From an uncultured Pelagibacteraceae bacterium (GTDB lineage Bacteria; Pseudomonadota; Alphaproteobacteria; Pelagibacterales; Pelagibacteraceae), in the NCBI GenBank assembly GCA_902614835.1, contig CACMMU010000003.1:1-64000 (forward strand): DNA of 64,000 nucleotides, given 5' to 3'. Below the pieces are notes generated by a model, which worked only from the letters and a program-made list of their open reading frames with translations, was not told the DNA's origin and did not search any database. Position numbers and translations under genes: made by a program. Positions 47,454 through 50,117 of the stretch are shown one piece after another (the stretch's first letter is position 1; every line of letters starts with the position of its first letter).

Positions 47454-49136
47454 ATGGAATTATCAAAAATAAATAGTTTAGTTGAATTATATTTTATAAA
47501 ATCCGCAGAAGTTGATGGTAAAAGACCATTTTTAAAATGGCTGAAACCAAATAAACCTACTTATAAATGGGAAGATATAACAGAGGGAATTTATAAAATT
47601 TCAAATAAAATTAAATCTTTAATAAATGAGGGTGACAGATGTTTGATTTTATCAGAGAACAGACCTTATTGGCTGATGTCTGATATATCAGTAATGAATG
47701 CAGGGGGCATATCAGTCCCAATATTTACAACTTATTCATCGAATGATTATGAATATATTTTTAATGATTGCAAACCATCGCTTATTATTGTTTCAAATAA
47801 TAATGAATTTAAAAAAATAAAAAATTATATAAATCTTGAAACTCAAAAAATAATATCTTTTGAAAAAATTGAAGGAAAAAGTTTATTATTACAAGATATT
47901 TTAAATGAGGAAAATTTTCAAAAAAATATCAATAAAAATTTAAAAAGAAATATGCCCGCTTGTATTATTTATACTTCTGGGACCTCAGGTAACCCTAAAG
48001 GAGTTATTTTGAGCCACGGAGGTATATTAGCAAATTGTGAGGGTGCTTTAGAATTATTAAACCCATTAATCCGAAAAAAAGATCCAATATTTTTAACGTG
48101 GCTACCTCTTTCACACTCATACGAACATGCTGTTCAATTCATTCAAATTTTACTTGGGGCTAAAGTTTTTTACGCAGAAAGTTTAGAAAAACTCATATCA
48201 AATATGTCTTTAGCAAAACCCACTATCATGACTGCTGTTCCAAGATTTTATCAAAATTTATTTAATAAAATAAATGCTAATTTTAAAAAGCAGTCTGGCT
48301 TTAAAAAATTGATTATTGAAAAAACATTAGACTTAGGAAAAAAGGTACTTAAAAAAGAACCCTTAAAAACTAATGAAAAAATAATAAATTTTTTATGTCA
48401 AATTCTAGTAAGAAAAAAAATCCAAAAACAATTTGGCGGAAATTTGCAGGCTTTTGTTTCGGGTGGAGGTGCATTGGATAAAAATGTTGGAGAATTTTTA
48501 AATGCAGTCGGTTTACCGACTTTGCAAGGCTATGGATTGACCGAAACTTCGCCTGTAGTCAGTTGTAACTTACCAGGAAATATTAAAGTTGAAACTGTAG
48601 GACCTCCCTTTAAGACAAATCAGGTTAAAATAGCAGATGATGGTGAAATTTTAGTAAAAGGAGAAAATGTAATGTTGGGATATTGGAATAAACAAAAAGA
48701 AACAGATGAAATAATTCAAAATGGATGGCTGCATACTGGTGATATTGGAGAAATAGATGCTACAGGATGTTTAAAAATTACTGATAGAAAAAAAGATATA
48801 ATTGTTAGTCATGGCGGAGATAATATTTCTCCAAGTAAAATAGAAAACTTTTTTTGCAACAATGAAAAAATTAAACAATGTCTAGTCTATGGAGACAAAA
48901 AAAATTATCTTGTCGCTTTAATTGTAGTAGATAAAAATGCAAAAGATTATACAACTATAAGAAGTATTGTAGATAATTTGAATAAAAGTTTGTCAATTTT
49001 AGAAAAAGTTAAAAAATTTAAGCTAATCGATGAAGAGTTTACAATCGACAATGGACTAATGACACCAACGTTGAAATTAAAAAGAAAAAAGATTATCGAA
49101 AAATATAAACAAGATTTAGAAAAACTTTATAGTTAG
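47454..49136 (+). CDS. long-chain acyl-CoA synthetase (AMP-forming)
   Basis: IIYTSGTSGNPKGVILSHGG, GYGLTETSPVVSCNLPG, GWLHTGDIGEIDATGCLKITDRKKDIIVSHGGDNISPSKIE. Confidence 0.92.
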   Translation: MELSKINSLVELYFIKSAEVDGKRPFLKWLKPNKPTYKWEDITEGIYKISNKIKSLINEGDRCLILSENRPYWLMSDISVMNAGGISVPIFTTYSSNDYEYIFNDCKPSLIIVSNNNEFKKIKNYINLETQKIISFEKIEGKSLLLQDILNEENFQKNINKNLKRNMPACIIYTSGTSGNPKGVILSHGGILANCEGALELLNPLIRKKDPIFLTWLPLSHSYEHAVQFIQILLGAKVFYAESLEKLISNMSLAKPTIMTAVPRFYQNLFNKINANFKKQSGFKKLIIEKTLDLGKKVLKKEPLKTNEKIINFLCQILVRKKIQKQFGGNLQAFVSGGGALDKNVGEFLNAVGLPTLQGYGLTETSPVVSCNLPGNIKVETVGPPFKTNQVKIADDGEILVKGENVMLGYWNKQKETDEIIQNGWLHTGDIGEIDATGCLKITDRKKDIIVSHGGDNISPSKIENFFCNNEKIKQCLVYGDKKNYLVALIVVDKNAKDYTTIRSIVDNLNKSLSILEKVKKFKLIDEEFTIDNGLMTPTLKLKRKKIIEKYKQDLEKLYS

Positions 49137-49266
49137 AAAAAATTTAATTTTTTTCAGAAATTTAATTAAAATCGTTGGTATTGCTCGTTTTTTTTAATTA
49201 AATATTTATTTTATATTAAAAAATAATTTTAATTAATTTTTTTCAAATTTGTTATTTAATTTGTAT

Positions 49267-49304
49267 TTGACATCTTTGTAAAAAAACTTAAATATAAAAT
49301 TATT
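49267..49304 (+). promoter_or_regulatory. promoter upstream of the Lys/Arg micro-ORF
   Basis: Consensus -35 TTGACA at 49267-49272 with an AT-rich -10 region (TTAAATATAAAAT) about 16-20 nt downstream. Confidence 0.5.
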
Positions 49305-49345
49305 AAACGAATCACTAAGATTTGTTTTCAAAAAGGGAGATAAAG

Positions 49346-49417
49346 ATGGCAAAAAGACGTAAAAAGAAAAAAGGAAAGAAAAAGAAAGCTAAAAAAAGAA
49401 GAAGAAGAAGAAGATAA
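49346..49417 (+). CDS. 23-aa ultra-basic Lys/Arg micropeptide (missing from supplied ORF track)
   Basis: Manual translation MAKRRKKKKGKKKKAKKRRRRRR-stop; SD-like AAAGGGAG 6-8 nt upstream, -35 TTGACA, strong terminator directly after. Confidence 0.75.
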   Translation: MAKRRKKKKGKKKKAKKRRRRRR

Positions 49418-49428
49418 ATAGTTTTCTT

Positions 49429-49468
49429 AAAACGCCCTTTCCAAATCTCACGGAAGGGGCGTTTTTTT
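49429..49468 (+). terminator. strong intrinsic terminator, usable from both strands
   Basis: AAAACGCCCTTTCC-loop-GGAAGGGGCGTTTT (14-bp stem with one G-U) followed by a T run; lies between the micro-ORF and convergent carD. Confidence 0.93.
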
Positions 49469-50117
49469 ATTGAGCTTCTAAATTTTGATTTCTACCCAAG
49501 GCTTTATCCATTTTCTTTTTTGCATCATCTGGGGATACTTTTAACACCGCCTCAAATTCACTCTGCAGTCTGTCGTAAGCTTTTTCAAAAAGTTGTCTCT
49601 CACTATAAGACTGGTCTGCTATCGCATTAGAATTTTTATTAAGATCTTTAACTACCTCAGCTAGTTCGTAAATTTTACCCGAATTTATTTTTTGTTCATA
49701 TTCCTGAGATCTTCTGCTCCACATTGTCCTTTTTATTTTTGGTTTACTTTTTAAAATTGATACACATTTATTTATTTGATTGCTTGATGATATTGGTCTT
49801 AAATTTGATTGTTGGTTTATTGGTATAGTCAAAGTCAATTTATCTTTATCTATAAATACTTTATAAAAGTTTATATCGATATCTCCAATTACTGCTTTTT
49901 CTACAGCTAGAATTTTTCCAACCCCATGTTTCGGATAAACCACATAATCATTAACATTATATGCTTTTTTTTCGGATGGCTGTTTTTTAATTTTTTTTAT
50001 TATAACTTTTTCATCAGCAGAAACATTTTTTTGGTTCAAAGCTTGCTTTTTTTCTAATTTAATAGATTTTTTTTTCTTGATTTTTATAACTTTATTTTTT
50101 TTACGTTTTCTTCCCAT
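49467..50117 (-). CDS. carD: CarD-family transcription regulator with Lys-rich N-terminal extension
   Basis: YNVNDYVVYPKHGVGKILAVE core, MWSRRSQEYEQKINSG, AYDRLQSEFEAVL. Confidence 0.9.
   Translation of the reverse strand: MGRKRKKNKVIKIKKKKSIKLEKKQALNQKNVSADEKVIIKKIKKQPSEKKAYNVNDYVVYPKHGVGKILAVEKAVIGDIDINFYKVFIDKDKLTLTIPINQQSNLRPISSSNQINKCVSILKSKPKIKRTMWSRRSQEYEQKINSGKIYELAEVVKDLNKNSNAIADQSYSERQLFEKAYDRLQSEFEAVLKVSPDDAKKKMDKALGRNQNLEAQ

Follow-up and report, generated by a model that had tools for sequence, protein, structure and literature searches.

A 23-residue Lys/Arg peptide gene convergent to carD in Pelagibacterales, probably working as an H1-tail-like polycation

Background

Protamines are short, sperm-specific polycations made almost purely of basic residues, among which arginine dominates. 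Bacterial proteins that resemble the tail of histone H1 are marked by K/A/P-rich repeats whose number varies. In Chlamydia, the H1-like Hc2 (HctB) binds DNA and varies in size through lysine-rich repeats (PMC2848022), and peptides consisting of the KPAA repeats of AlgP bind DNA in vitro (PMC9239181). The CarD of Anaeromyxobacter combines a CarD domain with an H1-like C-terminal region (PMC9304148). The small protein bS22, rich in Arg and Lys, is bound to rRNA H44 (PMC6582356).

Here we describe a gene for a Lys/Arg peptide in a stretch of 64,000 nucleotides (contig CACMMU010000003.1, assembly GCA_902614835.1, from an uncultured Pelagibacteraceae bacterium), referred to below as the window. SAR11 bacteria, which serve as a model for minimal genomes, rank with the most abundant groups of bacteria in the ocean. 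We class this apparently new gene by its probable working, which is that of an H1-tail-like polycation. Formal H1-like membership is not claimed because the 23-aa form by itself lacks the K/A/P composition, and because we only infer DNA binding.

Results

The gene and its neighbours

An earlier note on this DNA had placed an ORF with 19 Lys/Arg among 23 residues (83%) at 49346, between an acyl-CoA synthetase gene and carD, and the coordinates and translation agree (Table 1). The window has 543 ORFs that start with ATG and encode 15-80 aa; this one is by far the most basic, the runner-up having 48% K/R. In 30 simulated windows the highest ORF did not exceed 53% K/R, and a content of 70% was reached by 0 of 17,658 ORFs. 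The K/R content, set against the window ORFs and the simulated windows, thus rules out a chance ORF.

Table 1. Position of the peptide gene, its putative signals and its neighbours in the window
Feature	Position	Strand	Remarks
acs, AMP-binding acyl-CoA synthetase	47454-49136	+	Upstream neighbour of peptide gene
-35 element TTGACA	49267-49272	+	Nearly invariant across the order; footprint of 149 sequences
5'-UTR hairpin	49305-49327 (arms 49305-49313, 49319-49327)	+	-6.9 kcal/mol, z -2.3 (window copy)
Invariant CGAATCA within 5'-UTR hairpin	49308-49314	+	Footprint
Shine-Dalgarno GGGAG	49335-49339	+	6 nt before ATG, conserved in footprint
Lys/Arg peptide gene	49346-49417	+	ATG to TAA, 23 aa, MAKRRKKKKGKKKKAKKRRRRRR; 199/199 testable loci and coding selection
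Terminator hairpin, T run on + strand	49429-49465 (arms 49429-49442, 49452-49465)	.	13/14 pairs, -21.7 kcal/mol, z -6.1
carD, CarD/CdnL-family RNA polymerase-binding regulator	49467-50117	-	Pfam PF02559 and PF21095; convergent to peptide gene, anchor

The interval from acs to the -35 element (49137-49266, ~130 bp) is nearly constant in length across genera and mostly unconserved in sequence, the exception being T-rich sequence conserved at about 49187-49195, where acs transcription may terminate. On the other side, Pelagibacterales CarD is extended at its N terminus by a long lysine-rich segment (49985-50117 on the minus strand of the window; also in L136, L139, L165 and L176). This segment resembles a basic DNA-binding tail, and open frames reach ~320 aa in relatives.

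Conservation across Pelagibacterales

The shortness and low complexity of the peptide preclude homology search. Loci were therefore collected with carD as the anchor, and a locus was taken as testable when a Pelagibacterales contig extends at least 160 nt beyond the carD stop. A K/R-rich ORF convergent to carD was found in every one of the 199 testable loci, some genomes being counted twice from two collections so that independent genomes are fewer than this. The loci hold 102 distinct peptides of 19-99 aa with net charges of +15 to +53. In loci of family f1 with enough upstream sequence, an acs-type gene almost always ends 180-217 nt before the start codon. The synteny search called for in the earlier note shows that start, frame and basic composition are kept in all loci examined.

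In non-Pelagibacterales alphaproteobacterial carD loci (L166-L193) a comparable ORF is absent within 1.5 kb, and within the limits of this 1.5-kb test the gene is found only in Pelagibacterales. A relaxed class-wide sequence pattern, which is blind to members of the type seen in sister family f2, matched only the two Pelagibacterales genomes, apart from a longer lysine-rich protein that we judged to lie outside the peptide family. One strict-pattern scan of viral contigs gave 0 copies, a weak result, since many true members escape this pattern as well. In two assemblies (L055/L056 and G570:C6) the carD region occurs twice, in opposite orientations, on one short contig; these duplicated regions are probably chimeras of assembly or whole-genome amplification.

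Coding selection and codon use

Single-base codon changes were counted between nearest-neighbour ORFs of equal length (n=93). There were 63 synonymous changes and 24 K/R exchanges; 5 changes swapped other residues among themselves, and 1 replaced K/R by a different residue. When the same base changes are placed randomly in the ORFs, 24, 20, 10 and 33, respectively, are expected, together with 7 that create stops, of which none was observed. Third codon positions hold 59 of the 93 changes (the sequences are related, so that neither these counts nor those of A-runs are of independent events; the direction is not in doubt). Purifying selection on the basic residues is clear. Synonymous changes dominate and K/R is kept, which means that conservation extends beyond RNA structure. 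The earlier suggestion of a functional small gene is thus supported both by order-wide conservation and by selection at the codon level, and the ORF is an unannotated small protein gene conserved order-wide in SAR11.

Runs of at least eight A are also avoided, with 36 observed against 199 expected for the same peptides. Compared with the genome and the ribosomal protein operon, the peptide genes are enriched in GCT (codon fraction 0.74 vs 0.35-0.39), ACT (0.92 vs 0.36) and AAG (0.26 vs 0.13-0.14) and depleted in AGG (0.02 vs 0.10-0.13), and the effect of this deviating choice is that A-runs are broken by synonymous codons. This fits selection against slippage in translation, transcription or replication.

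Promoter, leader and terminator

A complete transcription unit had been proposed for the ORF. Its TTGACA at 49267, Shine-Dalgarno sequence and terminator are confirmed, while the AT-rich -10 region is not, as a -10 box could be recognised neither by consensus scan nor in the footprint. To these elements we add the 5'-UTR hairpin and the invariant CGAATCA. The footprint of 149 f1 sequences has conserved blocks at TTGACAT, CGAATCA, GATT-GT, GGGAG, the ORF and the terminator, where an AAACGC...GCGTTTTTT block is conserved. Of 202 loci, 196 have a distance of 39-41 nt from TTGAC to CGAATC, which puts CGAATCA just within the predicted transcript, a few bases from its start. TTGACA and CGAATCA are likewise present in 30/30 f2 loci.

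Leaders of almost all genera fold into this hairpin (mean z -3.6 over 134 distinct leaders), with helices of at least 9 bp in 90 of the 134 leaders compared with ~3% when the rest is shuffled. Depending on the lineage the helix is ACGAAUC/GAUUCGU or GCGAAUC/GAUUCGC, and elsewhere AUCACUUAA/UUAAGUGAU or AUCACAUAA/UUAUGUGAU, so that the variants between lineages represent changes on both sides of pairs. In the window's own genome, which is 79% complete, TTGACA-N-CGAATCA occurs at the peptide gene only. A leader specific to this gene is therefore likelier than a regulon, which this single occurrence disfavours.

Some leaders (L108, L109, L239, L244 and f2 loci such as L146) have an upstream CUCC or CCUCU that could pair with the GGAG of the Shine-Dalgarno sequence, which suggests that the peptide may be under translational control in those genera; the window leader has neither motif. 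The 3' arm of the window's 5' hairpin (AGATTTG, 49318-49324) and the loop of the terminator (CAAATCT, 49442-49448) have complementary sequences, possibly by chance. The CCAAATCTCACGG loop recurs in several loci of the window's genus, g1, and none was seen elsewhere.

The terminator, which the earlier note described as 14 bp with a U tract, is present with all pairs except one. It is near-symmetric and lies between convergent genes, where its position suits transcripts of carD as well as those of the peptide gene; by itself it is thus no evidence specific to the ORF. Together with the conserved 5' hairpin it could suggest a non-coding RNA, or a leader or pausing peptide, with an incidental reading frame. 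We consider this extremely unlikely given the coding pattern of substitution (59/93 at third positions, K/R kept), codons that avoid A-runs, and a search of Rfam that gave nothing above threshold. A pure RNA element is rejected by the codon-level selection, structure being seen only in the 5' UTR and the terminator. The pausing-leader option of the earlier note fails for want of a co-directional gene downstream; a leader or arrest peptide is rejected, since the downstream carD is convergent and a terminator lies between.

A graded series of orthologues

In sister family f2 the same slot encodes proteins of 40-99 aa with 49% K, 25% A, 10% R and 7% P, in which KKAAPKKK units are repeated (MEELKVIFAKARKKAKKKAAPKKKRKAAKRKPAKKKAAPKKKK... 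is an example). The orthologue of genus g5 has 58 aa and is also K/A/P-rich (MAKKRKKAAKKKVAKKPAKRKVAKKKPAAKKRKPAAKKKAPAKKRKPAKKKTAKKRKR). Other genera have forms of 27-41 aa that are poorer in Ala and contain little Pro, and the short forms, including those of g1 (20-23 aa), have 19-25 aa with ~50% K and 34% R. Orthologues differ in length by repeat units and preserve their composition; tandem short basic repeats go together with variation in protein length (40-99 aa in f2, 19-58 aa in f1). A K/A/P-rich composition is found in f2 and g5; the 23-aa form of the window has 1 Ala beyond the initial MA and 0 Pro. The graded series runs from H1-tail-like K/A/P repeats to nearly pure K/R, and we infer that the direction of change was reduction rather than expansion.

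The length range bears on a further option, that of a ribosome-associated or rRNA-binding small protein, like bS22, eL41 or mS38, that would be threaded into rRNA and might be autoregulated through its leader. This ribosome or RNA role is the main rival to a function on the nucleoid, although we regard it as unlikely. The size and charge of the peptide are near those of small K/R-rich ribosomal proteins. Structured single-gene leaders are typical of autoregulated ribosomal protein genes, and the leader found here would suit an RNA-binding protein of this kind. However, a range of 19-99 aa reached by repeat expansion is unlike a peptide fitted to an rRNA pocket, where length would be near-constant, the short forms have no hydrophobic anchor residues, and no such gene was detected within 1.5 kb of carD in other Alphaproteobacteria. 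Neither PDB nor NCBIfam gave a meaningful match to a known ribosomal chain, the small basic proteins considered being bS22, eL41, mS38 and bL37. The option, also raised in the earlier note, is thus weakened by length range and lack of a match, and retains the gene-specific leader in its favour.

Low complexity defeats homology tests for this family. Pfam and NCBIfam gave no match of note for the peptide, their models being weak on 23-aa low-complexity queries. With phmmer against PDB, the 23- and 58-aa forms had no match, and an 85-aa form had one weak match in composition, to ribosomal L29 (E 0.52). No description of the peptide was found in the main texts of the open-access papers searched; an earlier mention is possible in PMC2704228, a SAR11 intergenic survey whose supplement lists misannotated coding regions. 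The main-text passages searched in the SAR11 TSS study (PMC5069720) do not mention the gene.

Discussion

The graded series and the repeat-driven change in length point to an H1-tail-like polycation, probably acting on DNA. The resemblance to H1 rests on the orthologues and not on the 23-aa form. We propose, by analogy and at roughly even chances, that the peptide is a free-standing polycation of this type, reduced to near-bare charge in the lineage of the window, that acts on nucleoid DNA. Its gene would have a promoter and a terminator of its own and a leader with a 5' hairpin, and the peptide would be unstructured, binding DNA by charge neutralisation and without sequence specificity. It may help to compact or protect the nucleoid. 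Two HU-family (HU-type) genes are encoded in the same genome, so the peptide would add to HU and not replace it. More tentatively, the leader hairpin could stabilise the mRNA or allow the peptide to curb its own synthesis. Among the roles suggested in the earlier note, that of a nucleoid-binding polycation gains support from the H1-tail-like orthologues in the same slot, with DNA binding itself proposed from likeness to known proteins.

Strong polycations in general bind RNA, ribosomes or polyphosphate as well. The peptide could serve a different polyanion, as counter-ion or as organiser, for example in polyphosphate granules or RNA condensates, with no part in chromosome packaging. Charge alone, without sequence detail, would suffice for this, and the H1-like AlgP associates with polyphosphate granules as well as DNA (PMC9239181). 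The neighbours of the peptide gene, acs and carD, offer no tie to polyphosphate metabolism, and we think such a role distinctly unlikely.

Another possible role involves the neighbour. In a streamlined genome, proximity to carD may reflect nothing more than synteny, which is generally high in SAR11. This counts against the idea that the peptide is a partner of CarD/CdnL, that is, an H1-like tail encoded apart from the RNA polymerase-binding domain and acting at promoters, as do the convergent orientation of the genes, their separate promoters and the lysine-rich extension that Pelagibacterales CarD already has. A partnership would be favoured by the fact that the gene is strictly paired with carD, in convergent orientation, throughout the order, and by the fusion of CarD to an H1-like tail in Anaeromyxobacter (PMC9304148); we nevertheless give it little chance.

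The proposed action of a reduced H1-tail-like polycation on the nucleoid can be carried further. A protamine-like polycation of ~20 residues might be a core SAR11 chromatin protein, streamlined from an H1-tail-like ancestor and subject to feedback via its 5' leader. We put this forward as a doubtful extension. If this is true, possibly no shorter chromatin protein is known, and a core gene would have been overlooked in very common ocean cells.

A core gene below the usual annotation length, encoding a peptide that trypsin destroys, would be invisible to standard genomics and proteomics, and annotation length floors in this way hide core genes. The natural series from 99 aa of K/A/P repeats to 19-25 aa of near-bare charge lends itself to asking what minimum of sequence suffices for a nucleoid protein. 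The promoter, the leader and the mass of the peptide are precise, testable predictions.

Comparison with known systems

Like the SAR11 proteins, Hc2 and its Bordetella and Burkholderia relatives are free-standing lysine-rich polycations whose size varies with repeat number. Hc2 has 165-237 aa in C. trachomatis (PMC2848022), whereas the SAR11 proteins have 19-99 aa and their short forms are almost only K/R. The C-terminal KPAA domains of AlgP and PhaF in Pseudomonas share the K/A/P-rich, H1-tail-like composition of the long SAR11 orthologues. In AlgP/PhaF, however, an N-terminal helical domain is attached and there are ~25 KPAA repeats (PMC9239181), while the SAR11 proteins have no separate domain. 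In Anaeromyxobacter, as at the SAR11 locus, a CarD-type domain is associated with an H1-like tail, in one fused protein in the former and in two convergent genes in the latter; this fusion is a loose functional hint, by analogy, for the carD neighbourhood. The proteins bS22, mS38 and eL41 are, like the SAR11 peptide, very short and dominated by Lys/Arg; they fold into a specific rRNA site, whereas the SAR11 family varies in length and has no sequence match to them. Protamines resemble the SAR11 peptide in being short and almost all basic; the SAR11 peptide is lysine-dominated and homology is not claimed.
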